The notes under the pieces were generated by a model. That model searched no databases and had not been told where the DNA came from. It saw only the letters and a list, made by a program, of their open reading frames with translations. Source: Struthio camelus (Eukaryota > Chordata > Aves > Struthioniformes > Struthionidae). From it: a stretch of DNA of 64,000 nt. Each line of letters opens with the position of its first letter. The stretch's first letter is position 1. Location: positions 194,860,247-194,924,246 of the forward strand of contig NC_090942.1 in NCBI RefSeq assembly GCF_040807025.1, in the 5' to 3' direction. The position numbers were made by a program, and so were the translations under genes. Positions 3,501-52,000 of this stretch are shown piece by piece.

Positions 3501-3836
3501 GCTGCATGCACCCGCTGGAGGCATCCTGACTTGAGCGGTGTTTTACTGACTACCCTGTCCCTATACCACTCCCCTTCCCCCGTCTTGCCTAGTTTAAAGC
3601 CCTCCTTACCAGGCTGGCCAATCTGTTGGCAAAGACACACGTGCCCCGCTTGGTAAGGTGGATCCCATCTCTCCCCATCAGCTGTTGATCTTCAGACAGG
3701 GCCCCATGGTCATAGAAACCAAAGCCCTGTTGCCAACACCAGCGGCGCAGCCAGTTGTTACCTTGGAAAACTTGTCTACTCCTCCTCCTGTCCTTTCCCC
3801 TCACAGGCAAGATTGAGGAGAAAATGTATGTTCTGG
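558..3836 (-). mobile_element. CR1 LINE retrotransposon, copy 1, 5'-truncated and inactivated
   Basis: Read on the minus strand, this is a non-LTR retrotransposon of the CR1 family. It starts inside the end of ORF1 (esterase-type tail with GRDGIHLTKRG, about 3600-3830). It continues through the ORF2 endonuclease domain (about 3400-2690; motifs TETWWGS and [14 protein letters not shown]) and the reverse transcriptase (about 2490-1200; [44 protein letters not shown] and the catalytic FADDTK). The 3' end carries the CR1-type ATTCTGTGATTCT octamer repeat at about 560-575, with no poly-A tail. ORF2 is broken: a 4-base insertion in the endonuclease, an extra G in a G-run before YYRPP, an in-frame TGA after DLLG, an extra T before WKKA, an extra G before MTGWVEEG, and a one-base loss after NKLS. 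It is therefore a dead copy. Its partner lies in inverted orientation at 16658-19818. Confidence 0.96.
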
Positions 3837-15001: not shown

Positions 15002-16657
15002 GCACTGTTCTACTCAAGTTCCTTGCGCAGAGAGATTTGCTTCCCAGGAAGCAAGAGTTTCCAGGATACCCGAATTAAATGAGATAGCATGCTTTGATCC
15101 TCTGTATCAAAAAAAAGTAAAAATAGTTCAATTATAGCCACACATAGCTCTCACATTAGGAAACTGCGTTTGAGCACAGAAAGCTGCAAAATTGACACAT
15201 CAAGCAGTTTCAGCGCACACTTATCTCCAGGTGAAATGGCGGACAGTATGTAAAAGGCATGTTGGACTAACATGAAATTGGCATGATATTTTCACCCCAT
15301 TTTACAAATTTGTGGATGAAATAATAGACCAGTGATTTATCTCCTATCAAGAACCTATGAGCTCTTGATTAGCTCATAAACCTACTCCACACAGGAGAAG
15401 GGTGAGATGTTGCCGTTTAACTCAAGCCCTGTAAAGTGGAAAGAAGGATTTGTCCCCCAACCTTAGAGAGAGTATTCCAGAACTACTAATAGAATTACTA
15501 GATAATTTGTATGTGGCTGGAACAGCCAATTCTTCATCTTATATAAGTAATAATTAACAGTTGCTTTACTGGCCTCAGTGGAATTTTGCTTAGGTAAAAA
15601 TATTACAAGAATCAAGATTTTGATTTGTATGCTCTTTGCCATATCACTGAAATTTCTATCAGCTCTGTCATAAAAGGAGGAGAATATATGTCTGTCTATT
15701 ACAGCCACATTTCTTAAACTTTTGAAAGCTGAGCCAACCTTGAGGGAAATGAGTTGCTGTTATGTTAATTTAAGTATCTATCTTTCCTCCCACAGAAGGT
15801 TTCTTATCGTCCCTTGCAGATATCATAAAATGGTGGTACAGCTTCTCATAGCATGAGCCTTCTGCACCCTTCACCTGCGCTATGCCTGGCAGTTGAGTAG
15901 GGAATGCTGCTAATATCAGAGTTTAGCTATTGGTGGTATCTGAGTTCACAGCCTTCAAAAATGGCTGGACAGCTCACATTTCAGACACGCTGATGGGTTG
16001 CCTGCAAATGAATCTGCAGGCTCTTGTGGTGTTGCTGTTCTAGTAGGCACTGTGCATATCTCATCCACTCATGCCTCACCACTGTCCCTTGCTATCCAGT
16101 AGGGTCATCTGAGTCCAAATTAGCCAGATTAACATTGATCTCCCCGTTCTGATATTGCTGGCACAGGCCTGTATTGACTGCACACACAAGCAGTCCAGGT
16201 GGCAAATTTGTGGACTTGGTGGCCACTGGCAGGAAGACAGTGGTGTGAGCATCTCAGGATGGTAACCTGTTCCACCAACACAGCTTGTCCCTGCAGCTCT
16301 TCTCTGCCTCAAGTATGACCATCTGAAACAGGATAGGACTGCAAGTAAAACCTACGTTCACTTGTCATTCTACTTATCAGTGTTTTCAATACATTTTTTT
16401 TTTAAAGGATACTGCTATCCTAAGAGAAGAAAGATTTTGAGTTTTGTGGTTGTTTTTTGTTATCATCTTAGTATGTGATTTGCGGAAGTCTTTATAACCA
16501 TGGCAACAAAACTTCCCACCTGCTTCTGTTGACAAATGTTACATCTCCATTACAGTTCTCTGCATACTCACAGAAGCAGCAGTGCTTTTGGGCACACAGA
16601 TTTGCTTCAATTTTTTAAAGTAATGCAAATTACTTGAATTCTAAAACAAACAAACAA
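15002..16657. other. 3' region of the STOML3-like gene and intergenic sequence
   Basis: This stretch begins right after the STOML3 stop codon and runs to the 5' truncation point of CR1 copy 2. No canonical AATAAA lies close to the stop; an ATTAAA variant at about 15075 is a possible polyadenylation signal. I recognised no gene or repeat in the remainder. Confidence 0.5.
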
Positions 16658-19600: not shown

Positions 19601-19818
19601 ACATGAGGAAAAACTTCTTCACTGTGAGAGTGACAGAGCATTGGAACAGGTTGCCCTGAGGGAGGTCGTGAAGTCTCCTTCCCTGGAGATATTCAAAACC
19701 CGTCTGGATGCGATCCTGGGCAACGTGCTCTAGAGGACCCTGCTTGAGCAGGGAGGTTGGACTAGATGATCTCCAGAGGTCCCTTCCACCCTGGGCCATT
19801 CTGCGATGCTGTGATGTA
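16658..19818 (+). mobile_element. CR1 LINE retrotransposon, copy 2, 5'-truncated and inactivated
   Basis: Plus-strand CR1 copy, inverted relative to copy 1. It enters at GACCATGGGACCCTGTCTG, about 100-170 bases further inside ORF1 than copy 1. The endonuclease (about 16950-17690) and reverse transcriptase (about 17880-19170, FADDTK at about 18920) follow, and it ends in ATTCTGCGATGCTGTGATG at about 19798-19818. It carries the same frameshifts and TGA as copy 1. Peptides from the endonuclease region are identical between the copies (129 of 129 and 93 of 93 residues in two blocks). Over the last 250-300 bases they differ at many positions. It lies between the convergent 3' ends of the STOML3-like and C4 genes. 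Confidence 0.96.
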
Positions 19819-20268: not shown

Positions 20269-23200
20269 TCAAAACTGGCACAGGGAGTCATGTGTGTTCA
20301 GAAAGTCCTGCAGCTGGGCACAGGCTTGCCGCTGAAGGGTGGCTTGGCACTTGTCGTCATCTGGAATTTTCTCCACCCAGGCTTGTGAATCAAGGAAGTA
20401 CTGTAGCCTAAGTAAAAATGGGAAAGGTAAAGGAGGCGATTTATTATTGAGCAACTGGCGAGCACAAGCCCCATGACGTCGTATCCCTCCATTGAGCTAT
20501 CTCTGAAGTCAAATAGTGCTATGCTGGCCAGGAAACCTGCATCTAGTTTCATCAGCAGGTTAACTGAGCTTGGAATAAAGTTTAGGAAAAGTCCGTGCCA
20601 AGTTGGGATAAGCCTAGGTGTACTTGTGTTTGGGGGGTGATGCTAAGCAAGTTTGGTTTAAGTTTCTGTTAGAATTCTGTGGAACATCAGAAAAATCCCC
20701 AATGAACACCGGTGGCACACAGTGAAGGGGCATTTTTTTTCGGCAGAACATGTCAAAATGTTGCCTAATTTTTCAAAATGTTACCTAATTTTTTGTGATG
20801 AGAAGCCATGCAGCTTCTGGCATTTTATAACTGGACTGGAGAAGGCTTCAGAGGTTACACCTCTGTTGGGAAAGTCTTCAGGACCTTAGCAGACATCTGC
20901 TGAAGCAGTCCTCCTAACTTACATGCTTGCATCATTTTTATACAGGAGTGGACAGAGAGGACCCTTGAGGGTTCCTGAAAGCGATGCTATAGAAATGGTC
21001 TCCCTCCTAGAAGCTTTCAAAGGCACTATCTTTCTGCCCTTCTGTACAGAGAAATTAGACATTTAAGATGTATTCCTCACTGATACTTAATACAGGCAGA
21101 CTAAAATTTCCCTTAGGTAAATTCCCTTTTTTTTCTTTAGAATGACAGTGAGAAATTAGAAGAATGCGTTATACACATAGATGGTATGACAGAAGCTTTG
21201 AGAGCTGTTCTTAGACATAGGCCCACGCATTTCTTTTGCAAATGCGCAAATTGTGCAAGGCATTCAGGGTAGCTGGAACAGTGCAGAACTTCCCCCTTCT
21301 CCTTTTCTGGCTGTGAATTTTTAACCCAGTAAAGCAAGGGCCAGATTTTGATGCTGATAAGTGTGGGAACCAGGCTCTGCACACACATGGGTGTGCTAAT
21401 AGCTTGGATAGCCATGCTATTCCCCACAGAGGAAGGGCAGCTACCCTTTTACCTGTGGTGAGCCTTTGCACAGCAGTACTCTGTGCATTTTAGTAAAGCC
21501 AGCAGAATCAGTCCCCAAGATTTTTGGCCCTCCCTTTGCTTTCTGGAGGCATTACAATAATTTGAGTACCCTTTGGATACACTAGGTTTGACAGCAGCCA
21601 CAGCTCGGAAAATGTTGCACTTACCTGTTGTTGTAGTCAACTGTTCGTCCATCTTTTCCCATGAGAAGGTACCGTTTGCCATCTTCCATGTTTAACTTGC
21701 AAGTGGAGCGCTTTATGAACTGTCGATGGGCACCCACATAGACGCTTTCATCTTCAGCTGTTGCATGAAAAGAGAAAACTCCATAAACACCTTTTCTAAT
21801 AAAGAGTAGGATCATAGCCCACAGGACACAACTCCATGTGATCTTGTACGATACTGTTAGTCCAAGGTAATATTTCACTCAAGAGTTGCTGCTTGACATG
21901 GGAGTAAATGGCCATCCTGTGGTAGGATATAATGCCCTTAACATTACCTATCTAAAAAATAAGTCTTTTTTGTCTTAGCTGGTTGTCTTGGCCTCCTCAA
22001 TAGCTACTGGAGGAAGAATCCCATGTAAAGCACAAGGCACTGGAAAACCAGAGCAGTATGACAGACGCTTCAAATAGAAAAGAGATTTCCTTGTCCTTGC
22101 CATCCTGCTAACTAGCTTCCCAACTACTGATTGTTACCGGAGAACTAACAGTGCTCCATTCCCTAACAAACATGATACTTCTTGCTATTTGAGCTGAGCA
22201 GCTGCAAGACTTTGTAGTTTTTAGTACCACAAAAGTGTGATGTCCTCAGCAATTCTTTATTAAGCCAATAAACACAGAACTGTTTGCAATAGAGATTTTT
22301 CATTCCTATGGAGTTTATTTAAATCTTAGACACTGAAAGAAAAGCCAAAGGGAAAGAAAATGCTATCTTATATTTCAGATTGCTCAAGCTTCTACTAGTC
22401 TTAAAAGCTGGCAAACTAAATTCAAACGTCTGGAGGCTCAGTAGTGCAGCAGGCAGTGTTAAAAATTCATTCCCCATAGAGCTCCTGACCTGAGCTTTGC
22501 TGATTTACCCTGTATGGCATTCCCTCCAAGCTGATATTTAGGACATGTGCTTGGTGATCTCCATATGGAGATAATTTAGGAGATTCTAGTCTGTATTCTG
22601 GCCCAGAAGATTACTAACCCAGAAAGAGCGTTTGAATTAGAGCTGCATGGCCTTTTACAGAAACGGCCATCCAAAGGCAGAAGAGGAGGATGCTCAGATA
22701 GTGTAGTGACCTGCAAGCTGGAAAGATGCTTATTTATCAGGAAAACACAGGTCATAAAGATACCGCATTATTTTGACAAAGTACAAAAAATAAATCCATT
22801 TACTGCTAGATTGCAAAGTAAATTAAAAACAGGCAAATAACATCAATATGTTAACTTCTTACACTTTTTTCTAAATATAATGCAAAATGCCATACATAAC
22901 CGTAGTGCCAAATTCAACATTAAACCAGCTCAAATTGCATGTAAGGCACTGCAGTCACCTATCAGCTAACAGAGGCTTGTGCACCCTCTGCTCTCTAAAG
23001 TATTATATGAATTTTGAAATTGAAAATAAAATCCTAAGAGAAAAATGAAATCCTAATGTTTGAATACTTTAATGCTAATAAGACTTCAGAGAGTTTGAGG
23101 TAGAGTGCAAAGCTGCAAAACCCAGCACTAAGAATTCCTAGAATCTAAGAATTTAACTCTTAGTTAAAACTTACATTAATTTTACATATGATACTCAGAG

Positions 23201-26200
23201 CCCAGCGAAAAGAAAAGTCAGTGTTCAGTAATACATGCTGTTTTATATATGCATTTCTTCCAAAGAATAATAGAGCAGCATAGGTTTTATCCAAGACTTT
23301 TCTATTATTCCTATGCTACATAGTGTACTGATTTTTCAATTTGTTTGAAGAAGGCAAAAAAATGTAATGATGTATCAGCATTACTTCCGAAAATTGTGAA
23401 GTTTTGTCTCAGGTTCATCAAGTTTGAACTACCATGGTATTTTTCATTTCCTATGCTTCATGAATGACCTCACAGAGTTCAGACTCTGGGGACCATAAGT
23501 ATTCGAGCTCTTACTTAATAAGTAATTAGGTAATTAGCAATTTTAAATCTTCAATTTAAAACAAAAATAAATTTCAATTACCATAATAGTCCAAAGTATA
23601 CAAGTAGGATTAAACTGGAACAACTCTTTCAAATTTTAGAATTGATAGTCAGAAATATAAAACTGGTTCTGTGTTATATTACACGGGCTAAACTGCTTCT
23701 CTAATGGACTCATAAAACAGTATAAACATTAATCCAAAACACATGCACCAATTCTTATAATAATAAGAGCAATCTGAGGAGTGCATATTCACAAAATGCT
23801 CTTTTGCCATCTCCAAAATAGGAATAAGTTTTTCCATATCTCTTCTGAACCAATACTTTCTTTCCAAGGATTGATACTGAAATAATGCTAGGAGTTCAGA
23901 GAATGAGGTGTGGCCCAACTAATTCTCATCTACTTTTGGTGCCAGCAAAGTGACGCCAAAATACCTTACTCTGCTGCCAGCTAACACCCTTTAATTTGTT
24001 GCACTGACTATTAGAGAAACTACAACCTGATGGTAGGACTTGAGTGTAGCTAGGTAATTGAAGAGCACACCTTTATTTCTAGCAAAGGCATGGGCTGGAG
24101 CAGGGCAAAATGTATCACTCACTGTCATTCCTTAGTCAAAGTTTTAGGTACAGCAGTGGCCAACCTCACTCAAAAAAAATTGTTTCCAGTGCTTGCCTGT
24201 GCATTTTTAGAATGAAGGCAATGGGACCCAGATCCCTAACTTCTCTATATCCTGTAGGATCCCTGGAGCGATTAATGAATCTTTCCATCAAGGTATGTAA
24301 TCTGTCAGAGACAGTGTTTTGATCACTTGGTACATTAGCATTTCTCCTGCATATGGAAGGCACTGGCTGTCACTAATACAGTCTCTGAGCTGATAAAATG
24401 TGAACTTAATCTTCCCATAGTAACTGGACACTGGGCATGAATCACAAGTTCTGTGCCATAAAGTACTTGGTGACATAAACTGTCCTCTGGGCAGAGATCA
24501 AGGGAGTGAGCTAATTATTCTGGTCAAGGTATGGAAGATTTTGGAACCTTTAAAGTCTTTCTTTAAAGGCAGTCTCCAGGGTGCCAGACTCAAGACTGAC
24601 AGCCACATAATACATGGTGGTTGAGGTCTGAAATATCATCTGACAGCTTCTCCAGAAATTACTTTGAAGAATGTCAGTGTCTACTGATGCCGCCTGTAAA
24701 ATAAAGTTCATATGGGGACAGCTGGGATGGCAAGCCTGCAAAAGGACACTGCCTGAGAAGGGTACATATTTTCACAAGGTAATCAAAGAAATAGAGAAAA
24801 GGGCTTCTTTTTTGTTATTACAATTATTAAATCAAAGTTTCTGAAGTTTTCCTGCGTTCACTGACTTCAAGCAAGTCTGTGAGAACTCTAAGCCTTTTCT
24901 ACAAGGGTCACACGCTACGTGCATAATAAGTATCTGAGTAACGAGCTCTCCAAATCTTGATTCAGTATGAAAACAGAGGTCAGTGGGTCTGTCTAGAGCA
25001 GGAAAAAAGTGGATCAGTAAGAGCAGTTACAGAGTGAAATTTTTAGTGCTGAGGACCTAATATCCACACTTTGCATGTTTTCAGAAGGTTTATTTTAGAC
25101 TAGCTCCCATCAGATCCCCTGTCCTGTTGTGAATGCCCCATTTAACAGCCGGAATGTGCCTTCTGGTTCAGTTTCATCCGAAAAGAATAAAGCTTGTGAG
25201 CTCCGAGATTGCTGCACGGTGTGAACCACAGCATGGTAAGTGGAGATGATTCATTTCAGCAACCTGCCCCTGAGCTGAGCTAAACTCCTAGCTGCACCCA
25301 ACAACTCTTTCAAGAAATAAGTCTTCTTGCAAGTATCTGACACTACTTTCCACAGCAAAAGGGATCTGCATGGATCATGGTCACTGTCGTTTAATTAACC
25401 TAGTTTTGCTATGGGTTAATGCAAGTGCCCAAACATTTTGATACTTACTGTTTTTAAGGATTCTCTGGATTTTGACTTCATAGTAATCAAAAACATTCTT
25501 CTGTGTGCTATTGAGGAGCTCTACCTCGTACACTGCAACAGATAACAACTGTGTGAGGCCAGATGGAAACACTAAGTTACGTCCAAAACTGAACAGTGAG
25601 TACACTTTTACCATATGTCAGTATAGAGGCCCGTCTATTACCTGTTCACCAGTTCTGGGAATGTAGAAGGCGATAGGATAGTAATTCAGTGCACCTAATA
25701 TGCTTTCAGAAAGTCAGGAACTAATCAACAGCCTCGAGATTCGTATTCCCTTTGCCATTTTGTTTTAGGAGCAGCTACTATATAAGTAGGTTTCCACCTG
25801 TACAGAGAAAGCTGCTTTTCTCCCTGTCCTTCTGTTAGTGTCTAACTCTCCAAAGCTGCTGAATCAGTCTTCCATCAGTAGTTATTCCAATTTTTCATCC
25901 AAGGAAGAGTCCAAAAAGGCAAATTAACAAAGGAGGAAATGTTCAGCTAGCTCAGCAGAGCAGCTGCTGAGCTATGGGATGCCAGGTACGGTAGCCTACT
26001 GCTTATCTCCATTGTATAACAATAGGGATCATGAGGATGATGGCACTCACTGGTCTTTTTTAAGCCCTATAATGGAATTTTATCCCGTCTTTCTTCCTCC
26101 AGCATTCTACAACATCTTTCAGAAACCATTCCTTTATCCTTTCCCTCCCCAGATGACTGCTGTAGCACGTGGCTTCATCTCATCTCCTCAGTCTCCAGGC

Positions 26201-29200
26201 CAGCTACAGAAGTTGTTTGTTTCAGGAGAGGTCTCTGCATATAAGACTCAACTTATCCTTATTATTCATCCTTATTTGTGTTTATCCTTATTTATCCTTA
26301 TCCTTAAAAGCACTATGTTTAAAATATATTGACAATTGTCTTTCATGCCTTACCATAATCTACAGTAGGGTTGTAGCACACAAAATTCAAGCGTGTGGTT
26401 ACTGATATGGCTTTACTGAAAGTGGATCTTTGTCTTGGACAGGGACCTAGAGTGAACAATATAAATTATGTATCTATTTCTACAGATATGGATATTTAGA
26501 TAGATATAGCACACACATACTCATCCACTCAACATCATAACAGATAGTATAATAAAACAGCAGAACAACTTTCTTAGGGGTATGATGGAGAGTTTTTACA
26601 TATATATGTATATGTACATATACATCACATGTAAATATCAAATCAGTCCTAAATATCTGTAAAACAACTGTTATGAATGTGGCACCAAGCATACTAGCAG
26701 ATACTCTGTGTCATGTATTATGCATTAAGTTAAACATAAGGATCATAATGGTCAATTTTGGACTTAAAAATTCTTATTTTAATGGTTTTCAGGAGTAACT
26801 ATTTTCTTTTAGACTGACTTATTTGACAATTCATCACCTTCTGCGCACTGGCAAACGTCTCCGTGGCACACCTTTGAAAGCATTGCACTGTGCTGGGGTG
26901 CACTATAGAATATACTGCACTTTCTTTCTATAGAAAAAAAAAACAGAATAACTTGTCTCAGAAAGTTCCAGTGAATGCGCTTAAGCTGCAGAAAAGAACT
27001 CTGCAGCCCAATTTATCCCTAGTCCAGAGAAGTCAGAGCACGAAGGAGTTAGTTAGATGCACATCAACAGTCTACAAAGACGTGCAGTCTAGGCACCTGG
27101 AATACAGATACTGCCTTGCTTTTGAGCTGGACACTTGGGGTCTTACTTCTGTTTTATTTGTTTAAGTTTTAGTCTTTCTTTTTTTGTTGTTGTTAGTTTG
27201 TTACCTCCCATAAGCATGCAACTTAAAAGCATCTTTAGACCATAGGGTTACAGTGACCACTGTACCACTTTAGAGGAAGGAGATAGGTTCACCATCAGTA
27301 AACGGTTTGTACCTGGTACTTTTAGCCATCAGAAAGAAAAGTCAATGTGGATGAAGCTTTGGGTGATGTACACTATTAAGGCTCTCTCAGCTTCAGGCAA
27401 AGGAAAGGTTTCACCTTATTTTCAAGTATTGTTTTCATGATTCTGGCAAATGGGGAAAGTTTGCATTTAATCTTCCTTGAATGGTGGATGAGACTGATTC
27501 CCCCAGAAACAAGGCACTTAAGCCAGACCTCTGAAGTTGCCTCTCTTGGATGCATAGAAAGACAGTCTAAGCAAAAAGATAATGCCAATAGAACATCCTA
27601 AGAACACCATGAGAAGCAGGAAGTCAAGAAACCTTATTTAAAAAAATCCATGAGTATAAAAGTATGTATTTTCAGTATATTTGCAATGATGGACCTTTCC
27701 TGAAAGGATATCAGTGTACATGTTTTTCAGTCATGGTATTAGAAGATGTTCAGGGTGGATTCTTTAACCCTGGAAAAAAATCACATGGTTTCATACACTG
27801 CATTGAAAGCACCTTTCACCATTGCGTTAAAAGCACTGAATTTCATTCTTAAAGGTCTCCCTTTCTAAACGGTTGCAGGTTCATTTTTCTATTTCCTTAA
27901 GTTAGCTTACCAGGATTGTAAAAATCATAAAGGATGGCATTTGCTGGCTGAACCAGGCCCATGGGATTGATTTGCTTTGCCCCAAATGATATACAGTCTG
28001 GTTCTGGTCCACTTGCGAGCTGGAGGGAAAAGGAACAATAGTTGCAAGGAGTAAACAAACTCATTCTCCCCAGTTGGTTCGATATTCATTTGTCCCTGTA
28101 CTAGCTGCTGAATGATTGTTTCTGATGGTGAGGGTGAGTTAATCCTGATATCTGTAACCTCAGCTTTACAAGCAAACTTTTTTCTATTAATTTATTGGGA
28201 AAATCTGTGGATGAGCCAAGCCTGGTTTTGTGAGATATGTGCAGTGAAGGTTTTCTCTCCTCGCAACTGACTGATCCTGAGTCATATCATCACTACTTTC
28301 AAGATTACTTGAACAGGCATGGCCTTAATATATGGTCAAAGCCTATCCTCTACTGGGGGCTTCTGGGTCTTGTGCCAGTATGTGCCCTTTCCACACTAAA
28401 ATGTTAAGGTCAGGGACAGCTTTTGACTTGTGTTAAATATACGGCTACTCTAGGGCAGTCATAGCAGCAATAATATTTAAAATTATTCCTTTTTCTGTTG
28501 CCTTGTTTTTATCAAAGCATTGCTCTGTTTGTGTCTTCTGCAGGGCTCACCCGCTATGAGCTACAGAGCTGGAGCATCTCAAGCCGGTATAGGATTTGGT
28601 CATAATCCAAAATATGGAGAAATGTACATGGAAATTGGGGAGTTTGATGACTCCACTTGTTTGTTACTGTATCAAGATTCATAGATCTCGATCCAGAAAT
28701 ACTGAACTTTACATGCAAGGCATCCACGTAGAATTTACAGGACCACCAGTGTTAATCTTGGACATAAGGACCTCCCATTTTTTAGCAACTGTTCTGGCTA
28801 GAGAAGATTGCTTAGTTTTTGGTCAAAAGCCCAAATCCCAGGCATGGACTGCATTTCCTTCATTTTCCTTATAAAGACCTGGGGTGAGGGTTCATATTTT
28901 CCCTCTCCTTGAAACTGAACACTTCAATAATACATGACAAAATCACAGGAAGGTAATACAATATGAAAAAAAATAACGGTCAGGTTTGAAAATAAGCCTG
29001 TATGTACTATCTGAACTGGAAGAGGTTGAAATAAACATTACGTTTGCTTACCTCGCCAAAGTAAAGCAAAACTTTTCCTTCCTTGTGCTCAAAGTGCTGT
29101 ATGTATTGGTCTGAAGACATTACCAACTGCAGTAAAATAAATAAAAAACAAACCAAAACCCTATGAGAACGGAAACGACATTGCTATCATGCTTTATAAT

Positions 29201-29704: not shown

Positions 29705-32700
29705 CTTTATAAGGGAGACCTGTCATCAGTGAACATTTACGCTGAACAGTTAGCCTTGCTCTGAAGAGTTTAGCTCTTCAGCTGTGCTAGTGATGAACCA
29801 AAAGATTCCGTACAAGTTAACTTTCCTTAGCGGATTTTAATTTGAAACTTAGCTACTTGCCTAATAAAGAGTTATAAGGCAGAAACAAGTTATCCAAACT
29901 AGTCAACTAGTCATCTAAAACCAAGATGTCTTGTCTTGTCAACTAGGCTTTCTTTGCAGCTGATAGGCAGAAACAATCACCTTCAAAGAACAGTTCATCC
30001 CACCCATCCTTTGAAGACAGGAAGTATAAGCAGCACTTGCAAGATGTCTATTCTTATTTATTACCTAGAGGGGTAGGCTAAGAAGCTAGCTTGTTCAAAT
30101 TCTTTATGGATAAGGTTATATACATTAACTCTACCTTTGCTGTCTAAGGCCTAAATCCTTATTGCCCTTACTACCTATTCTGCATTTATATTGGACTTCC
30201 AATCTTTTCTGCTTCCACCTTCTCAAAAATCAGGTCACTGTGTCATTGCTGGATAATGAGGGCATTATGCACTCAGATGGGGTATCTCGCCATGGTACAC
30301 CGTCGACATACACCTAGTGGTATTTTATGAACATATTATTTTGTCATCCTCTATTCTCCATAAGAGATGTAGCATAGTGCAGGGAAGCTCTGTAGCTATG
30401 GTGATGTAGCCAGTGTCTTAAGTTCGTCTCCTGTGTCTTAATTACAAAAACTGAAACTTGACATTATCTTTTAAGTCTCACCCTAACACTCGGCAATGTA
30501 CCGCAGAATAATGGATCTGATTGTTGATAAACTTCTCATAGTAATAAATGAAGAAAATTATGCCTCAACCAGAATTCACTGAGTCCAAGGTTAACTAAGG
30601 AGAGCAAAGCCTTGGAATAATGGTAATTCTTGTCCTCCAGTTGCCATTGTTCTTGCTGCTATCTGTGAAGGTGAGTAAAAGTCACCGCTCCCGGGGCTCT
30701 CTCAAAAGTCAGTGGAAAGGTATTTTCCACTGAGGAAATGCCATCATTCATGTTTCTGTAGGCCCTGTGCGAGTGTTACTCTGCATGGGAGGATTTCTTT
30801 CTCACTAGCTCTGCCTTTGCTGATTTCTTGATTACCAGAATAAAAGGATTTTACCATCTGTCTTCCTCCACCCCAGCAAATAGTAATAGACATCTTTTAT
30901 CTTTCATGAGGCCAGAGTGGGACTACGAAGAAGGTAAGTGGCAGCCTCCAAGTGGCAGTATCTCCCTAAAAAGCAGTGAAACTCTGTAAATGTGTCATTA
31001 CTGTACCCCTATCAGGTCTACTTTATTTAACAGACAAACCAGTGGTTAATGATCACTTTCAAATGATTCACTGTTCAGGGACTTTAGAGTGCCAGACCTC
31101 ACTAGTGAGCCAGATGGGGCAGAATCTGGAACTGAGTGTTCAAGATCTGTGCAAACAGCCTACACCTTGTATCCTGCATGGAAATTGACTCTCCTGCCAT
31201 AGAAGAGAAAATGTTGCCTCACCATATATACATACTTGCAGGTTAGATGCCCAGCTTAGTGATTTGAAGGGTGTGACCAAGAATTCTTTACAAAAATGAA
31301 TTCATTTTCTAACAAAATCTGCAAATCGGCAGACCTACCTCACACAGACTTTGTAGTGTAGTGATTCTGCTTTACCGGGAGAGATGACATCCCTTTTCCT
31401 TCTGCTGTGAATGTCAAACCACTCTATTTCAGACAGCGGCTGATGCAAGCTGCTTTCTATAGCAAAGGAGTCCTCATAATCATAGTTTTCCTCAGAGTAT
31501 GCAGCATCTGGAGGTGATAGACACAATCAGCCTTGCACAAACCTGACTGAAGGACCTGCTAATTTGGCTCCTTTTTTATATAATGATAAGGATATGGGGG
31601 GAGTTATACCATCTCCGTGGACTTATAAACCTTTGTTGTCTTCCATTTCATTATTTCTAATCCATTCAAAGTTAAAACTTAAGAGATAATTATACTAATA
31701 TCAACCAACAAATCTAGCTAAGAATGGGATTTGGGCTTTTCACAAATACATAAAAGATAATCCCTTTCTCTCAGTTAATGATTCAAATAGAAAAGGAAAT
31801 GCAGATGTAGGTAGAGGGGATGATGCCACACTTCAGGGAAGGGAAAAGATCATCTTGACAATATGAAAATACTGCTAACAGATCTGTTAAGGACCACAGC
31901 CAGTCTCTCCTCAGTCAGGGAACTGAGCTGAGCTTTCCCCGCGTGGCAGCCAGGATCTCCATCAAGAGAGATTACCAGCTCTCCTTCCAGTAACAAAGAG
32001 CAGTTGCTAATAGCATTGGTATACCTATTAGTTAACCTCTGCATCTACAGTTGCCCAGAAGGTTGTTAAATCATTTAAAAATATAAATGAATTGAATGTA
32101 ACAAAAATGTCAATAGCTCTGCGCGGTCCAGAGGCCTCTCTCTTTCCTTGTTTTGCTCATTTATTCCCACTCTACAAGGCCAGAAAGCCAACAAATATTA
32201 TCAGCAGTTGGGTGAACCTGCACCTTTGATACCACTTGCCCTTTTCACTCACCGGTGTATTTAATGCTTCCTTCCACTTCCACTGTCAAAATCAGATCGT
32301 TACACGTGTTTTTCTTTAGCTCAGAGGACTGGTACACTTTTAATACCTAACATAAAAACACAAATCATAAACTTCTAAAAACAAAATTTAAATGACAAGA
32401 GTTTTACTCAGTTGGGACTTGTACTCAGCAAATTGCTGATGGGAGATGGGAGTGTGAAGAGCAACATGGGTCTCCCAGAGGCTTAGGGTAGTCTCAGAGA
32501 ACTGCCACGGATATAAACAGGAGAGCTCTCATGTGCGCATCCCATGGTCCAAATTGGCCAGGGCCCTTTGAAATAACTCCCCCTTCCCAAACGCAAAGGG
32601 GTCTTTCAAGTTTCAGCCACCTTTGCCAGCAGGTTATTCTCACTGAGGACTTTATGAAGTTAAGAAGAGGTAAATTGACCATCAGGGCAATTTCTAAATT

Positions 32701-35700: not shown

Positions 35701-38700
35701 AGGGTGGACATGCCACTGGTCAACAGCCTTCAGAGTTAGGTACCAAAAGTCAGGTTTCTTACCGCATCAGATGGCTCATTGTAAACTGGTAGAGACTGTT
35801 GCAATGCAATGGTTACAAAGGCTGTCAAAGCCAAATCCTCTTCTGCTGTCTTAATGCCGCCCTGGAAGATGAGACAGGAAAAGGAAAAGTTAAATGTACG
35901 TGCTTATGAATATGCTTATCAATGCTTTTAAACTATAAAATCACCTTTCACGAATTCAAAGCTCCTCTTGTCAAACCATCTGAGTGTAGGCCTTGCAGTT
36001 CACCCTTTAATTTTACTCAATAACTTGTGTCTTCTACACTGGCAGCCAGTTTTAATTAGGCATTGTTAAGAGCTGAAAAACCTACCACATCCTTCAACTG
36101 GAAATCAAATATTTAACTGTTTAACTCATGGTTAAAAATTTACAGTTTCTCATTGAAATATTTATGGCTTCAATTTCTAACCACTGTTTTTTTCTCTACT
36201 ACTCTTCATAGACTAAAGAGCCCTTTAGAAATCAGAACTTGCGCCCTATGAAGGTGACATACCCATCCACATAACCAGATCATTTCTCAATCTGCTTCTT
36301 GATAAGCTAAATAAAGTGCCCTCCTTAGCATTTTTCTTAAGATCTGCATTTTCATTACCATTTCTCTTTGCAATTCTTTTGTTCATGCTCTCCTCTGGCA
36401 AAAGGACAGATTGTTTGCTTTGAAAGATTTCAGTCTCTGTACAAAAATATCATGAGCTGTTCTTGAAGAAAATGTGAAATAGAAGCTAAGTAGCTCAGCA
36501 TGAACACAGGCGAAAATAAAAAAAAAAAAAACATAGGCCAGGTCTTGAGGTGGTTGTTTTCAATAGCATTGCACCAACTGAGGAACAGGGTTTGAGAGGG
36601 AAAGCCTCACTAATCATTTGAAGAAGATCACTAAAAAAAAAATCTCTTTTTTTAAGGGTAGTACAGAGGTACCTGTATTTTCAATGAATTTTAGAAGGTG
36701 CATATTATTTTTGTACCTAGATGCTTGGAGAGCGTAACAAACTTGTATTTCTGGGTGTTTACACGAGGTGCGTAGGCTAACATAAATTCCTCAGAAGTTC
36801 TATTGTCTGACATCAAGAATAAGCCTCTGGGGCAAGGATCGCTGCTGACAGCTACGTGATCAAAGGGTACAGAGAAGATGGAGCTAGGCAGAACAAGAGG
36901 CAACAAGTATAAGGTGGAAAAAAGAAAATTCTGATTAGATATTAGGAAAAGGTTTTTACCACAAGGATAGTTAAATACCGGAACAGGTTACCCAGAGAGG
37001 TTGTAAGCTATCCTTAGAGGTGTTCAAGACTTGACTGAACAAGGCCCAGAGCAACCTGATCTGAGCACAAGGTTGGACCAGATGACCCCTGGCGGTCCCT
37101 TCCAATTTGTATTATGATTCTATGGGTTTTGGAAATAAAAGGTACAAATTTGTGCATAGCACAAAGATCCCAGTACTAATTTCATACCTACTCTAGAGGT
37201 TGAGATCAGGTGCACAATTATCTGAAGCTGAATCAAAAAATAAAGGTATCAAAATGCAAGCTATACTTCTCTGACATAATGGGTCTTTTAATAGATCATT
37301 GCATTACAGGGTTTGCACTTACGTTACAGATTTCTTTTCTTTTAGATAAATTAGTTGGTACTCAATAAATGAGAATATTCCCTTGATCCCTAACAGCTCT
37401 AAATGTGCAATAGATTCTACAAAAGTCTAAAACACTAAAGACTCACCTGCATAGTCCTGTCCAATACTGGGTGATGGTCATGAAATGAGTTATCCGCCTG
37501 CTGTTGATTAAGCAGGTAGGAAATGGATTTGAGTATGTGATCGTCTTGGACACTAATGTGTTCTCTGCACCTTGTGAGTACTTTAACAATGAAAGCAGTT
37601 AACCTGCATGAAAAAAAATGTCCCAAACTTGTGTTGACATATATTTATAGATGACCGTATTGATGGGAAAAGAAACATACCTGTTCTGTGCAAAGAGTCA
37701 GATTCAACACAGTGAGCTCACTGGAATCCAGTGAGTTATCATGCTCCACCAGAGCTGCAATGACAACGTAAACCCTCCTACTCTATGGCATATGCAAAAT
37801 AATTAGCGGCTAAGTATAAGCCTCTTTCATTAAGGACTAAACCTGCTTAGAGACTTGTATGGCTGACTATCCGTGACAAAAGTACATAGGCAACACTATG
37901 CCCACCAGCTTTTGAAAATCCAGTCCAAATCCCCCAAATAATGCTATTTATCAAATTATAATAGTGATATTTTAGAAAAAAACAGCTAAGGCTGATTATG
38001 AAAAATACACTTACCATACACTGCTGGGGATTTTTTTAAACGCTCCATAGGAACCATCTTCCTTTTGAAACTCAAGCAGCCTAGTATAGCCTATATGAAC
38101 AAGACAGCATATATACCATTCAGAGAATATGCACATTTGTTAGGTGTTTTCATACATCACTTATGTTATCAAGGAGACATGCATTATTAACTAGCGGGAG
38201 AGTACATGGAAGTGTCCTCTAGTATGTTAAAGAGGAATGACTGGGTGAGATGACCTGTGAAACAGATAAAAGGCTAAACTTAAAAGGTGTTATTTGATTT
38301 TGGTTGAGCCATTAGAAGAACCTGAACACTGCAAACATCTGTAGATATGTGGATACCAAGGCATTTTCTGCATAATGAATCTTGGGAGACTTTTTCCCAT
38401 ACAGTCGTCTTTTTAAGCAGTTGATTTTATGGAGCATGGAATCAAAAAGGATACAAAACATCATTTACCGGGTCAGATATAGGCTTAGAAATTAGGAGTT
38501 GTGAGCTCTGTTCTTGATTATGCTGTTATCTGGACAAAGTCTGTATAATTTCTATAGAACTCATTTTCTACCCCAGGGAACTTCTCTAGAAAGTATCAAT
38601 AAAAGCACAATGTAGGAACTGAATGCTGCTAATAATAAATAATCATCAGCATGATTTCATGTTGCTTTAGGCAACCTTAGATAAATGACTAAACACCACC

Positions 38701-39970
38701 ACTCAGCAACTACTGGCATGTGTTTTTAATCTGTGTATTTACCCTTGTTCTTCATTGATGAATTCTGTGCTGCATAGGATCTGAAGCTCATAAAGGCAGG
38801 TGCACTGTCTGTGGTTCAGGGAGACAACTAAGCGTTTTTAGGATATGATTCATCTTGGCCTTTTTTGCACCTATACATTAGGGTGAAATGAGTCACACAC
38901 TGTAACTGCCCTTTTCTATCCAGTAACTCTGAGGGCAGATGACAGTGATCAGCTCAGATTTTCCTTCCATCCAAGGACTCATGCTTCTGAATTAATCATG
39001 GGAGAGGGGTGACTGTGAATGCCAATACTGCTGCAATGTCAGATGTAAACAGTTAGGCACCTAAATCTTGTTTCTCATGCCTTGTCAATGGTACTTCTGC
39101 ATGGCTGTGTTAAGGTAATGCTCAGTCCTTTCTCAAGCAACAAAGCGTAATACGCAATGCAAGGGATTATAAACCAGTGTAGGCTCGTTTCTTTCTTTTT
39201 TGTTGCTTTTTTTTCCTACATACCTCGTTCAATCATCCTAATGGCTTCATCTTTCCGTTCAGGGTTAAGTTTCACCCACTGCTCACTTGCATCCAAGTAC
39301 TCAATAGCATAGACTGCAGGGGCCATTTTCACCATTGTCTGCTCTGCACAGCCTGTTGGCATCTGGATAAGTTTATCAATTCCAGCAGCAGTAAGACAAT
39401 TTTCAACAGACTCCCCCATAATACTCCCTGTAGTAAAAGACATATGCCAAAATACTGTATTTAAAGCTGGCTGATGTAAAAAGAATAAAATATGATATTT
39501 ACTATAGGCTGACACTCGAACATGGCCTGATTACACAGCTGTCTGATACTTCTCATTATGAAACACTGTCTTTAGCTAATTATCACTCTACAAGGCGGAG
39601 GAAGATGAAGGGTGAGAGAATAGGCCCTGGAAAAGCTGAAGGAGGCTGAGGCAATGAAGGAGCACAAAGGAGAAAGTCCTGGGGCTGTTGGAGGCAGCGA
39701 AGCAGGAAGAGGGAGAAAGACTGGTGCCTCAGGTTCAGGCTGGAAAATTCTTGTCAAATCAGACTTGGTCCTCCCACAGAGCACAAAGAAAATGGCCTTA
39801 AATATGTAAGACATTTGGGGCAACTTTTTTTTTCCTATGATTTTTGTCATTTGATGAGTTCAAGCACTTTAGAATGGGGATTGGAAATGGATAGCCTTTG
39901 TCTCAAGGATGCATTATTTTATAGTTCCTGGGAAATTCTGTGTATTTGCTATCAGATAATGATATATGTA

Positions 39971-43000: not shown

Positions 43001-46000
43001 TGGAAGATCCTTGAACCATAGGGAAGTAAAAAGGATAGTACACTCTTCTAGGTCTGCTCCATTCAACCCATTTCAGAAGATGCCAGCCGGCAGAGTTGGC
43101 TGAGGTAAGAGATAAAGGTATTGGACTACCTACTCACAAAATACCTCTGCATTTTCTATATCTGTTTTTTCAGTAGCTCAGTGTTTCCCAGACTGGCAGA
43201 CAGCAAAAAAGTAGCTGGTTACTTCAATAATGTGGGAGAAGACATGTCCAAAAGACATGGAATTTGGTAGTATAACCATTTACCGTTACTGTGGTAAATG
43301 AAATCTATCTTATACAGCAAGTCTGATGAGCAAGCAGAATTGGATCCTGTTCTTGGTGAAACTTTCAAAATGGGAGCACAGTGTTCGGGTTTTAGGAGGG
43401 CAATGAAAGGCTGTCGGGTTAGCTCTATTTTACAGATAGATAGCTATATAGCTAACTAGATCTGCATATCACAGTAGCCAGTGGTAATACTACCTGGAGA
43501 TCTTTAGGTAGATAGTTGTAAATCACTGCTTTTATTTCTAGTTGTTCATGTCGTTTAACAGAGTACGGTAACCTCATGGATATAAAAAAGTCTTTGAAAA
43601 CCTCAAAGGTGTGAGGGTCAGCTATGCAAAATCCTGGAGTAAGAAAAAAAACAGAGCTGAGAATTAAACACTTAACATCATTAGTTGATAAAAAATCAGG
43701 TGTCTAGCCAGAACTCAATGCCAGGGCTCCTCCAAGGTCAAGAGCAGGAGGAGACAGGTATCTCCCGAAAGCATCTTCACCTTGTTTTCTTTATATATGT
43801 ATGTGTATGTAGCCCTTAACGTCTAGCTGAGTTTCAATACAGCATAAAAAGGAAGATTAAATAGAATGGTCAAAAGATTATATTTTGCAATATAGACTGT
43901 CTCACCCTGTCAATTTAGCATTGCAACAATACACATTCTCTATTCATGAGTATAAAGCAATCCAATAAAAGAAGAATACTTTTACCTTTTTGGGGAGATA
44001 TACTTATTGCTTGAATTTCCCAGGTAGTTATAGAGTCAGGAGCAATGTTTTTTACACTAAGAAACAGAAAATAAAGTCTATTAAGAAGAATGTATGAAAT
44101 GTTAACGTTATTTGCTGAAGTTTGAGGATTGTAAGGGAAAAAAGTATTCCCTCAGTAGTGGAAACAAAATACTTGCAAATTTTCTGAATTCTTTGTACCA
44201 GGTAACACATAAAACTGATATTTATATAAATTTTATTATACAAATTAAGCTGGATTCATCTATTCAGGTAATATAGTACCTATGGTTTCCAGGATTGTTC
44301 ACTTCTTCTAAATTCCACCACCAGCTCTCTGGAAAATAACTGCGCAAGCTGATGGAAGTTTCATCAAATATGTCATCTTCGTGAAGATCATAATCTGTAA
44401 GATAAAAGTGGGATTCTGTTCTGAAGTCTTTGGCTGCTGACTTTACACTGTCTTACAGGACACCCTGTCAGAGAGAAAGTAGCATGAAAAATATTCTGTA
44501 TTCATCTGGGTTTGATCCTGTGCATTTCAAAAAAAGGTGAAAAAGGGATGCAATGACCCTGGGGATGCAAATGATTGTCTTTGAACAAAAGCATAAATCT
44601 TCCTTCCAAGCTCAATAATTATATGCTACCAAATAAGAAAATATTCCCCTGTAGTTATGAGTGGCAAAGCTATTCCCGCTTCCCAGTCACATATTTGTGA
44701 TAGAGCGTGCAAGTGAGATCAGAGAAAAATGGTAGCAGAAATCACACTTTGAATATGGTCATTTTCAATGCGAAGGATTTTTTTTTTTTGGTAACATGAG
44801 CTCCTGTGTGATCAGAGATAGATATTAGGGAGAAGAAAAGAAGAGAGAGAGATAAAATTATCCCTTTATATGAGATAGTGTTTTGCAAGTACTTGGAAGC
44901 TGTAATAATAGTACCACTAATAAAACACTTGTGAAAGACAAGGTTGCTCAGAGACTTGACTGGGGATCCCCCCTTTACTCTGCTCAGCCGTTTGCACCCT
45001 CCCAGGGTGCAGGCAGAGCCCAGTAGTTCCATGTTAAAGCGGTTCTGGCTGCAAAGGCTGCTAAAGCGATTCCTGCCTTTTCTCACCCCAAGAAGTTACC
45101 CTTTCACTCTCTCACGCTCAGCAGCGGCCCTGCAGCATTTGACCCCCCTTAACCCTCCCTTGTCCCCTATATGAAGGATATTTTTCTTTTGACAGTTGCA
45201 TGTCACCAATCTTTACATCGGGCCAATCCCACTCCACTTCTTCGCTTTGCCGCCTCCTTCCTGAGGGCTGTGGCCTTCTCGCAACAGACCTTGAAAGCTT
45301 TTTTGCATTCAGTGGAACCAGCAATTTTTGTTAGCCTTTTCTCACAAGAAAACCTCATGGGATTTAATTTCATTCCATCATGACAGCATTTTCGTAGACC
45401 AGGGTGTTCATATTTGCTGGCTGTAACATAATTAAAGCCCAGGATTAGTGCTGTGGAAGCAGCAGTAGACATAAAGGTGTTCATTCTACTTATTGTACTT
45501 ATTCCTGTCATTCTTTGCAGTTAACATTGACTGGTATTGCAACAGTCTAGCAGCAATCGGGGACCTGTGACTATCCTAAAAATACAATACAAACATAAAA
45601 GCAAAGGGTGGGCCTTACCCCATCCTAGAGTTTTTTCTTCACATGGAGATTACAAATTAAAAATGCCTCCTTAACACACTAGAATTAGATATCCTGGTAG
45701 AAATAATCATGTCATTGTTCTTGTTCTTGAAGAAAATGACAAATTTCAGAAGTTACGAAGAACCTGGCTTCAAGCCTTGGTAACTTTTGGCAAGAAAATA
45801 TCAATTTGTGTAATCTGGTCTAAAGGAAAGCTTTTTATTATTATTATTTTTTAAATTTAGATCGTATATTATATTAGCATTTCTCTTATTTGGAGCACAA
45901 ACTGCCAAAGCTAGCACAATTTTGAAGCAGAATATCACCAAAAAGTGGGATCTAGGCAACAAATTCTAGCCATAAAAATAATTTTCAAAAAATGGTCTTT

Positions 46001-49000
46001 CTCTTGAATATACAGCTTGAAGAATATAACGCTATCTCATTCTATGACACGATATCGAGTAGAAGTGCTTTGCATTTGGGTTTAGAAGATGGTGAATGAG
46101 TTTCCATTTGCAGCTATATCATTGTTTGTTGGTTTTGTTTTTTGATTTTTTTTTTGATAAATGCACATGGCACATCATGGCATTGTATACACCCTTGCAT
46201 GAGGTTATATCACATAACACAAGAATTGGTACTGTGAGTGTGCTGCTGTCCTGTACTGTCCCATCACTTGCTGCTTGACAAACGCCAGCTACTTCTCTTT
46301 GCCTTTCCCTTTACTATGTGGGCATACCAATTCCTGACATTATCTTCTGGAAATCCAATGATCTCTTCTGCCTTCTGGTATCCTGGGGGCATTTATAGCC
46401 TGGGAAAGTGGAACAGAAAGGCTTGGTTATGATACTGTGATAATAAGAGTCTCATCAGGTAAATCAGAGAAGATCCATCTCAGGATCCAGCTCATTCGCA
46501 AAAGCCCTACAATTTACAGAGTTACCTTATAGCCCTGGCTGACTGCCCCAGCTGAATTAGGTGCCCAAAGATCAACAGCCAAGATCTGAACTACCTGAGC
46601 TACTGGCACTCAGTGGAAGAACAGAAAAAAAAAATCCACATAGAAGGGAAGTCTTACAACAGTACAACAATAGAATGTTTCTAATTTTTAAATAATCAAA
46701 CCCCCCTCAGATATGTTGTGATCTTGCGTAAACATCTAAAATAAACGATAGATTGCGCTTACCTTCCCGAAAATTGGATTTAATTGTATCTGATAAAAAG
46801 GCCAGACCCATATCAGTAAAAACTTGTACATTATCTGCACCGCCACCTGCAGAACATCCAAGATCATAGGAATTCATAGCATTAAAGACCTGTCAAATAA
46901 AAAAGCACAGATGGACTGTGCACACTTGCAAAAGTTTCTTTTTTTCTTTATATACAAAAACAATATTGCAACCTATTGCACAGTTGCTCAATATACAGAA
47001 GCAAGACGAACTGGTAGTACAAGCTACACTTAAATACTAAGATTAAAGCTGATGGATGTTTTAGTTGGGGAATAATTTCAATTAATTTATGTTAATTTAC
47101 GAACGTGTCTGCCATAGAATGGAAATACCCAGACAGCTGGTCTTAAATATATTGTGAATTGCAAGAACAAAAACATTTTCAAGATCATCAAAGCTTTGAT
47201 TAAGTAATTGATAGCCATTAATTGCATTCTGGTCCTCTCTCTAGCCATGCCAAAAGTTACTTGACTAGTGGACATGATATTTTCTTCTTGTAGATATCTT
47301 ACTTTTTTGGATGTAAGCTTATTTTGCTTGTTCAGAATAAAAACTGCTCTATCAACCACAGCTAAGGCCACTATTCCCGCATGGTCCGTTTCAATCAGTA
47401 AATTGACGTTGTCTGTTGGTTTATATTTCTCATGTTCTGTCCTCAGTTTGATCTAAATAGAAAATATTGAAACAAAAATATCATATTTGTTAATAAAATG
47501 CAAATACTTTTTGGCCAGCTGATACTGTCAGCTGTGATTGTCAATGGTTAGACACTGGGGGGGCATTCCTGCTTCTATTTGGGATCCTGCCTTTTGGAAG
47601 AAATAGATGCAGACATAACCCACTGGGGCAGGTAAGAGAGGGCTCCAAGATTTGTGTGTCTATGTGAGATATTCAGCCCTGTGTTTCAATGGGACTCAAG
47701 CGTCACTGGGAATTAAAAGTATGCATAAGGGTTTTGCTGAACTAGGGCCTTCAAAATTATTTTTTTTATTTTCCAGTGGAAACAAAATCACCATGAAATA
47801 GACATAGGAAAAAACAACTAATTTATATCAAAAATACAGTGTGTAATAGTACCATCTCCTTTCTATGTCCCGTTTGCATTTTTCAGCATGACTGAGTTCA
47901 GATCAGGTGCATATCTGATGTAGATATTACTGTAGTTTTTGGTGGAAATAGCCATGGTGATTCTGAGCTTAATAGAATTATTTTTTAAATGCCAATCTCA
48001 GTTAAATGGGGTTTTCTTACTTGATAAGTGCGGAATTGGCTCTTTAGCCTGGAGTGTGTTAGAGATGGACATTTTTTTCCAGCAAACTTTTTTCCCAATG
48101 GAATATCATCTTCTTTAAAAAAAAAAATGGAGGGAGAAAAATAATTTGAATGTCTTGCACTTTTCAATGTTTCATTCTATTGGGAAAAATATTATTGTCT
48201 TACTTTTTCCTTTTTACTTTATGACACCAGAAAAGAGGATGAGTAAGGTGTAAAAAAGGGTAGAGGGACTTATATTGTTTCTACATTTCATTTTCTAATG
48301 CAAAGAAGTTTAAAAAAAAAGTGATTTGGAAGTGCTATGGACTCTCAGAAAATCACTTTTAACAGAAGTGAAAATTTGAAAAATTACTTTCAATTCCTTT
48401 TAATTTTTTTCAAAAAATATACTTTACTTCCTTTTACTTGATAAATTCCATTGCAACCTGACAAATTTCTAAAGAGATTTTATCCCTTGCAAAAGTTTTA
48501 CTAACGGTGTTTTTTATTATCTAGACATTTGCAGAGAGAGATTTACCTGCCCGAAACTCTATTTTCTGCCTTTTTCAGGTATAACCTGTCCTATAGAAGA
48601 ACATCGTCTCTGCCATCAGTTTTGGGAAACTTTCCCAGATATACTTTTTAGCAAGAATCCTGAGGACTCTCTTTTTCAATAGAAACTAAAATTTCCAGCA
48701 TATCTGTCATTTATAACTCCAAATCTGAAGTGTACCTGCACTCACTCTCTCTGCAGATATCCCTGTTTTTTATTTCAGAATGTAATGATTAAAGCATTTT
48801 GCTTTGACTGTACCTTTCCTTCGCAGACATCCACAACGTCTACCCATATGGAATCGGCGACGATCTCCTTATGACCCTTGTTCTCAACGAAGTAGTAAGC
48901 TAAGAAGCGAAAGGCGGGCACCATGTTCTCTGTGATTTTAAGGTTTATTATTTTGTTTGAGTAGGGAACCCTCCCCAAAAGCTCAGCTTGCCCCTTTGTC

Positions 49001-52000
49001 ACGACCTGCAGAGCAGAAACAAGCACATGGCACATCAGATATTGTGAATTTGCACTGGATTGTGCATAATTTTATGTTCATATATAAAATATTCTCAGGC
49101 CACTTCCATTTGAACTATTTCTAACAGCACCTAGCAATTTTAACTTCCTGGCTGGTCTGAACATCCCTGCATGCTGGTAGCATGGAGGGGACATGGCATG
49201 CAGCGCCCCTTGGACAGGAGCACGGAGGTAAGTCTCTGTAGCACTAGTCCTGCAGCCCGGGTTTGAACACACAGATCTACCTACTTTCACTCAGTCTTGC
49301 TACCTGAAAACAGGCCCTTAGAAGACAGTATTACTTCTATCTTCTATATAACAGGTCATCGCCCCCAGCAGAATATCGAGTTCAGTTAATGTCATCTGTA
49401 CTGAACTGACAGCGTGAAACGCAGCAGCTTTCCAAAGTCCACAATGAATGAGATTCAGAAAGAAACAAAGTCCTGTTGCAGCCTGCTCTGAAATCCTCAC
49501 TACTCTTCTTTTAAGTGACCAAAGTACAGGGGAGACCCTCACCTCTCAGCTACAGCAGTATCTCCTGTCATCCCATCTCCAGCTGTCAAATCACCCATAC
49601 GCCCTACCTGCCAAACTCTACCTCTTCCTGGAAGTAGGCAGCAAGGCATGTAATCCTGTGCTGAAGTCCTCTAAAAAGGGAAAGGGAAAGGGAAAGGGAA
49701 AGGGAAAGGGAAAGGGAAAGGGAGAGGGAGAGGGAGAGGGAGAGGGAGAGGGAGAGGGAGAGGGAGAGGGAGAGGGAGAGGGAGAGGGAGAGGGAGAGGG
49801 AGAGGGAGAGGGAAGGGAAGGGAAGGGAAGGGAAGGGAAGGGAAGGGAAGGGAAGGGAAGGGAAGGGAAGGGAAGGGAAGGGAAGGAAAAATATGAAAAA
49901 ATAAAGCCTACATTAAACTCCTAGGGATATAATAATTCCATTATATCAGTGTACAACAAAAAATGAATGGGAACTGGTGCACATTGTGTGCAGCAGCCTG
50001 GGAAATCTAAACCATCAAGGGAAATTATGAGGAAGAGAGGCAGAAGAGGAATTAAATACAGAAAACACATTTGACATTCAACAGATTTGCTCCTAGAATG
50101 TATCCATGGACACATCTGTCTTCTTCAGAAAAATAAATACTTTGCATGCCTGGTCTCAATCTGAGCAGGATTGTTTCCTTCCTGTTGCATTAACTTAATA
50201 TCCTTGAGCCCAATTTCAGAGAGGTATTTAGGGACATAACATCCAATACCTTCAGTGGCTCCTCATTACGTTATTTATTGGGGATAACAGTGACCTGTGA
50301 ACTAACACCAGATGCAAGTTGCATAGTAGTTTATAAATTGTCTTATTCATGAAATGAGCAACAGTTAACTAGAAGATGCATTTTCTGAGACATTCCAGGT
50401 CCCCTGGAATATGACTAGGTTTTCTATTTACAGGGATAGAGTCTTATTTACACGTATGCTTCTGAACACAACAAGGACCTTCCATTCTGAAACAGTAAAA
50501 GAACAGTTATTTATAAGAATTAGACCAATGAAAATAATATAATAATAGTGTGACGTAACTTTCTGGGGGACCTATTCCAGTGTTCCATTTGCTACTAGTG
50601 AAAACATTTTTCCTATAGACCAAAGTGAATCTTCCAAGCTACAGCTTGTAGCATTTACCCCTTGTTATATTCCATGACACTACACAGAAAAGTTTGTTTC
50701 CATCATGTCTGTAACGCCCCTCAAAGTAATTTTAGGTTGTTGTTAGCGCACTCTTCAGCCTCTTCTTCACCAAGCTGAACAAGTCCAGTTCCTTCAGCCT
50801 CTCTTAGTAGGTCCAGACCTACTAAGCACGTTGCTAGCACGTGCTAACGCGTATTAGCACGTTGACCACCTTGGTTGCCCTCCAGTAGATCCTCTCTGCT
50901 TTCTGGCTATCTATTGATAGATAAGTAGATAGATGTTCTGGACTACATCTTTTCTAAAAGAAGTTATTAATATGCTACTATCCTATTTACCATATAATAG
51001 AAGTAGTCTATCCTTCCACTGCCAGGCTGATGAATATCATTCAAGGTAATGGGTAAGGTATCTCCAGGTGCCAAGACAGTATGTGGGACACTGAGGCTGA
51101 GGTAGTTGCGGGTATCAGACTTGTATCTTTCAGCTCTGACACTGGTTTCAGGTGATTCTAATTTTTCTTTTCCCTCTTCAGCCTTTACCTGTGAGGGTAG
51201 ACAAGGATAGAGTGAGTAGACAGTCACTCAGGAGGCAGTATAAAGTGTCACTCTTAATTCATATCTCTCCAAGTCACACAGAAAGTGCTGGGATCTGAGA
51301 TGAATCGCTACTGAGATTTCATTAGTAGAACCTGGCATCATAAAACCATGATTTTCATTACTTTGTTCTCTCATCCTATTTTGTCTCTTGCTGAATTTGC
51401 GTTTGATAATTTCCCGGTATGGCTTTTTCTAAAAAAATCAGTGGCTTAAAATCACAAAGGGGTATTCTGACAGCTCTTTTTCTCTTTCTATATTGTGCAC
51501 GTAATTGAACTATCTGGGTGTCCAGATGTAGCCTTCTGTCTGTACTGCTCAGGACCTTTTCCTTCATCTCTTTTGTATCGTTTGCTATCCTTCCTCATGG
51601 TTATATCTTTCATAGTCTCATCCCCATTCCCATCCTACATGCCAGGAAAATGCACATCTGTATCAAATAAGAAGGCATCACCACCCGTGCAGATACTGCT
51701 CATGCACCAATGTACCAGAGTTTCATTCACTTCAGTGAGACATTGTGCAGATGATGTAAGAAAATATTTTCCACGTTCCATGCTAATTTCATGAAAACTG
51801 AACACCTTCACATTCTTTCTTGTCTTATGAGCTCTTCTCAACAATATATTTTTAAACATTAATGTTTAGGGGTTTTTTTACCATTATTTGAAGCATCTGT
51901 GCATCTGCAGGGATGTTGAAAATGAAGGGGACTAGACCCTCTTTATTAGACAGTGCAGTCTGTTTTATTGGGGGGGTTCCAGGTAAGGTAACAGTAGCAG

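Follow-up and report, generated by a model that had tools for sequence, protein, structure and literature searches.

The window analysed here is a stretch of 64,000 nucleotides (G000:C1:194860247-194924246 in the 1.45-Gb Struthio camelus assembly, C1 being the contig on which it lies), and it contains most of a complement C4 gene. The spliced protein-to-genome alignment, for which the window and the next 10 kb served as input, places the gene on the minus strand and divides it into 41 exons, all with GT donors and AG acceptors and with neither stop codons nor frameshifts; 39 of them (exons 3-41) lie inside the window (Table 1). The spliced product comprises 1687 residues and is identical, letter for letter, to P0001, listed as "complement C4-A isoform X1 [Struthio camelus]", a record name that should not be taken as orthology to human C4A. 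Exon 26 lies exactly where the first-pass annotation had placed it; the exon, flanked by AG and GT, is translated as (W)[52 protein letters not shown]. Since the 41 exons join without a stop into a protein identical to the listed ostrich record, this reading is not due to chance. The GAC codon previously noted at the position of thioester reactivity is present as the reverse complement, and the encoded residue, Asp1108, falls opposite an Asp in the alignment with human C4A, which confirms the observation. An intron of the gene also harbors a purine-rich tandem array of the AAAGGG type (positions 49675-49886, 37 copies of 6 bases).

Table 1. Coordinates of the C4 gene, its principal sites and the neighboring open frames, numbered from the first nucleotide of the window.
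Feature	Position	Strand	Basis
C4 exons 3-41 and stop codon	20269..63769	-	Spliced alignment; TGA directly after last exon
C4 exons 1-2, outside the window (beyond position 64000)	offsets 68056-67992, 65091-64899	-	Spliced alignment
Exon 26, isotype-determining Asp1108	37447..37603	-	Spliced alignment; codon GAC at 37461-37459
Exon 24, thioester motif GCAEQT	39224..39427	-	Cys993 TGT 39350-39348; Gln996 CAG 39341-39339
Exons 16-17, RRQKR processing site between beta and alpha chains, and anaphylatoxin domain of C4a with GVGLAR at its end	45217..46399	-	Pfam ANATO; aligned to human C4A
Exon 33, alpha/gamma processing site SRRKRD	31339..31507	-	Spliced alignment; aligned sites
Exons 37-41, C-terminal C345C/NTR module	20272..26927	-	Pfam NTR; exon coordinates
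Two open frames, stomatin-family neighbor	13593-14763	+	Pfam Band_7 PF01145, 1.7e-12 and 1.5e-5

The flanks of the gene were read as open frames of at least 90 amino acids, covering roughly 30 kb to one side and roughly 80 kb to the other. Both of the neighboring open frames tested match Band_7. The first-pass annotation had called this neighbor STOML3; its stomatin-family nature stands and is consistent with STOML3, and the name itself rests on published synteny, PMC7768046 giving STOML3 and FREM2 among the C4.2 neighbors in chicken, gar and zebrafish. A minus-strand open frame with a Calx-beta match, at about 143 kb when counted from the first position of the window and about 75 kb past C4 exon 1, is consistent with FREM2, as judged from the frame itself rather than from a whole-gene model. 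On the opposite side are open frames which we take to resemble PROSER1 and NHLRC3; a Pfam scan of two pieces of these frames gave no match. The surroundings are of the STOML3/FREM2 type, with no class III gene in the flanks read, in agreement with the earlier proposal that the Asp lineage is located outside the MHC. The stomatin-family gene is flanked by a 3.15-kb element present twice in inverted orientation (561-3713 on the minus strand and 16657-19810 on the plus strand). The two copies are 97.9% identical, and their open frames presumably encode the reverse transcriptase of an avian LINE of the CR1 family.

In the ostrich protein, Pfam identifies 12 families at E<=1e-3, in addition to one weak match below the cut-off (UPF0489). 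The domains comprise MG1-MG4, the bait region, A2M, ANATO (residues 686-721, E 1.3e-10), TED, C4 CUB, the receptor-binding domain and NTR (residues 1560-1666, E 9e-24). The gene thus shows the domain plan of C3, C4 and C5 (anaphylatoxin, TED and C345C), combined with two furin-type sites that would give rise to three chains. These sites, RRQKR (beta/alpha) and RRKR (alpha/gamma), as well as the Arg that closes C4a, are all aligned with the sites of human C4A. The thioester Cys and Gln are present as Cys993 and Gln996 in GCAEQT, a motif that differs from the human GCGEQT and is common in C4, as seen in the alignment of relatives. Among solved structures, the top match of the exon-26 segment is human C4A (1hzf_A, E 9.6e-9), with Asp opposite Asp, and the best relatives of the whole protein are human C4A and C4B.

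The conservation of these features among birds was assessed in the best 120 of 377 matches. In this set the GCAEQT motif occurs in all 120 orthologues and Asp occupies the isotypic site in 116, while the sequence HHPVLD at the site and the processing sites are kept in most. The four exceptions in the set carry Glu (Crypturellus, P0007), Asn (Phaenicophaeus, P0041, and Catharus, P0097) or His (Notiomystis, P0112); they are scattered in a FastTree phylogeny of the 120 birds and human C4A, with ordinary branch lengths of 0.042-0.065. Each exception is a single record and may reflect an error of assembly or annotation. As four of the 120 listed birds lack it, Asp is not strictly required. The idea that the adjacent conserved His of HHPVLD takes over catalysis was abandoned; the fish members do not possess those His residues.

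A length-limited search for wider, more distant relatives found 85 proteins, 77 of which were aligned. The resulting tree of 75 rows leaves out 108 of the 120 bird orthologues, P0195, P0198-P0205 and 15 of the records P0121-P0194, these being near duplicates (P0131, P0132, P0133, P0134, P0137, P0139, P0144, P0146, P0148 and P0192) and over-long or fused rows (P0154, P0174, P0179, P0189 and P0191). Its support values are SH-aLRT alone, from a quick run; a second set of 38 rows, hand-picked from the 75, was evaluated by both SH-aLRT and UFBoot. Columns round the catalytic site were masked in the trees.

In the 75-row tree a single clade (SH-aLRT 100) holds the 12 non-MHC C4s of birds together with 17 C4s of ray-finned fishes, and the same grouping is found in the 38-row tree (SH-aLRT 99.9, UFBoot 100); it includes the chicken and ray-finned-fish C4.2 and is separate from MHC C4. 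Asp is found in 16 of the 17 fish rows and Ser in the other. The opposite bony-vertebrate side of the 75-row tree numbers 38 rows (33 His, 4 Asp and 1 unreadable), and Asp inside this His lineage occurs in human C4A, wallaby (P0178), Anolis (P0170) and Euleptes (P0171). In the 38-row tree human C4A groups with elephant (100/100), and the His-type C4s of goose and pheasant, which fall in the tetrapod His clade apart from the bird Asp-type genes, group with turtles (82.6/59) within an amniote clade (100/100). The two C4 lineages proposed in the first-pass annotation are therefore recovered as separate clades, and the ostrich gene is not a recent copy of the bird His-type C4. Placing human C4A inside the Asp clade costs 1910 lnL units and is rejected (p-AU 2e-77), such that the earlier interpretation, including the convergence of the human C4A Asp, is supported. 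Among squamates, Asp is seen within the His lineage in Anolis sagrei (P0170) and in one of two Euleptes records (P0171); by their position in the tree these are apparently independent gains, like that of human C4A.

The five shark rows have His (two), Ala and Met (one each) or an unreadable residue at the site. They join the Asp clade in the quick 75-row tree (98) and in one other 75-row tree without support values, and the His side in the 38-row tree (35/46) and in another 75-row tree without support values. The shark placement is thus unstable between trees, and the duplication may have preceded or followed the shark split.

The closest known counterpart is the chicken non-MHC C4 on chromosome 1 (C4.2, P0089), an orthologue with 76.6% identity over 1686 aligned residues, the same Asp and the same GCAEQT, which differs from the ostrich protein only at the species level. 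The C4.2 or D-type proteins of ray-finned fishes (Amia P0121, Anguilla P0124, salmonids and zebrafish P0147) belong to the same clade with full support and likewise carry Asp, at about 43-47% identity; nearly all of them, however, read xYD at the site as opposed to HHPVLD in birds, and Megalops (P0138) has Ser. Human C4A shares the aligned Asp and the domain plan, but it is a member of the His lineage, resides in the MHC, acquired its Asp independently and is only 38.4% identical. The MHC or His-type C4s of birds (e.g., goose P0193 and chicken P0210) share the C4 domain plan and the thioester, yet they belong to the other clade, at about 33% identity, with His in all 22 and GCGEQS/A in the 21 that are readable.

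Much of this framework has been described. PMC8813856 and PMC7768046 describe the C4 gene on chicken chromosome 1 with its synteny and its Asp, and report that mammals have lost it. In the former, the two-lineage model is presented with the non-MHC location, conserved synteny, Asp, mammalian loss and independent regain in human C4A, and Nonaka 2017 is cited; PMC7768046 gives most of the same scenario, covers chicken C4.2 and fish synteny and takes another view of the timing of the duplication. According to unpublished data of the authors of PMC8813856, the chicken chromosome-1 C4 resembles C4A both in its residue and in assays, and is abundant, or the better expressed, in blood. Shark C4 is treated in PMC10751288. 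The bird non-MHC Asp-type lineage, convergence included, is thus already known, and the ostrich gene is one more member.

We consider it about 95% probable that the C4 gene in the window is the ostrich representative of an ancient Asp-type lineage located outside the MHC (C4.2, or "D-lineage"), which birds and many ray-finned fishes have retained. The gene might instead have arisen recently, as a copy of the bird's own His-type C4 from the MHC that moved to this locus and exchanged His for Asp as occurred within mammals, and the same substitution did arise within the His lineage in the mammalian and squamate proteins listed above. Such an origin is nevertheless extremely improbable, considering the 33.7% identity to goose His-type C4 compared to that with the chicken Asp-type gene, and the rejection, with the catalytic stretch masked, of a clade that unites bird Asp-type and bird His-type C4s (dlnL 317, p-AU 5e-4). 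It is just as hard to credit a decayed or repurposed gene that lacks thioester function: the two-residue differences round the site and the GCAEQT in place of GCGEQT could be read in this manner, but the 41 exons are free of stops and frameshifts, and among the best 120 of 377 bird matches the thioester motif is invariant and the processing sites are largely maintained.

A separate question is whether the ostrich, perhaps along with other palaeognaths and with passerines, has the Asp-type gene as its sole C4, which would then have to serve both protein and carbohydrate targets; we regard this as rather unlikely. The second, His-type C4 envisaged in the first-pass annotation was not found in the ostrich assembly and is present in chicken and other birds. 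As a query, the goose His-type C4 (P0193) found 27 proteins, 22 of which are bird C4s, all with His; in the ostrich assembly it matched just two exons of the window gene. A TED-family search of the assembly yielded 52 matches, and among the places opened, which are a part of these, there was no other C4-like place. Candidates for an MHC C4 were rejected as C3 (C31; GCGEQN, His), as C5-like without a thioester (C20), as having a GCGEQN of the alpha-2-macroglobulin type (C26) or as having no C4-like site (C25); L001-L008 (C1:88.9-89.3 Mb, C26 and C3) are alpha-2-macroglobulin-like, with 28-48% identity to the C4 queries. In addition, the 22 bird His-type records (P0193, P0194 and P0206-P0225) in the database searched include no passerines and no palaeognaths, compared to 50 (40 passerines and 10 palaeognaths) among the Asp-type records in the best 120 of 377 matches (Fisher p 4e-5), where we assigned the bird orders from the names, by recall. 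This gap could reflect database sampling or the difficulty of assembling the bird MHC, the regions of which are GC-rich and poorly assembled. Moreover, a search of the ostrich assembly for MHC class I (PF00129) gave no match, as did an equally silent control search; since class I, TAP2 and CD1 are reported from an earlier ostrich genome (PMC5002281), the block may be absent or may have escaped the search. As class I was likewise not found, the missing His-type C4 may reflect either a loss or a gap. MHC class II beta was detected at one place (L033, G000:C1:220100125-220100331), on the same large chromosome C1, where beta-1- and beta-2-like open frames lie close together. More doubtful still is the extended proposal that the non-MHC Asp gene is all that remains of C4 in the ostrich, and perhaps throughout palaeognaths and passerines. 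In that case the classical and lectin pathways would depend on a single, amine-preferring C4, and the scattered substitutions seen in birds (Notiomystis His, Catharus and Phaenicophaeus Asn, Crypturellus Glu) would represent retuning of this sole C4.

In C4 chemistry, His at the isotypic position forms an acyl-imidazole intermediate and directs the thioester to hydroxyl targets, whereas Asp leads to direct aminolysis and protein targets. From the sequence, gene structure, motifs and phylogeny of the ostrich Asp-type C4 we infer its cleavage, chemistry, target preference and expression. The secreted precursor would be cut at RRQKR and RRKR into beta, alpha and gamma chains. C1s or MASP-2 would presumably cleave after the Arg of GVGLAR to free C4a, thereby exposing the Cys993-Gln996 thioester. 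Because Asp1108 stands where a His would form the acyl-imidazole, the acyl group would be transferred by direct aminolysis; the Asp should therefore favor attachment to proteins, and ostrich C4b may attach mostly to protein amino groups, for example on immune complexes, as in human C4A. Together with C2, the C4b would then form the C3 convertase.

The ostrich gene provides a palaeognath data point for an Asp lineage that spans the listed birds. The features that lend themselves to further tests are the changed residue in four of the best 120 of 377 bird matches, the recurrence of Asp in the squamate His lineage, and the absence of passerine and palaeognath His-type C4 from the database searched. 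The split between Asp and His offers a clean natural case in which a single residue determines the kind of chemical group that an immune protein targets: birds and fishes have an old, specialized pair of C4s, and Asp was re-invented in mammals.
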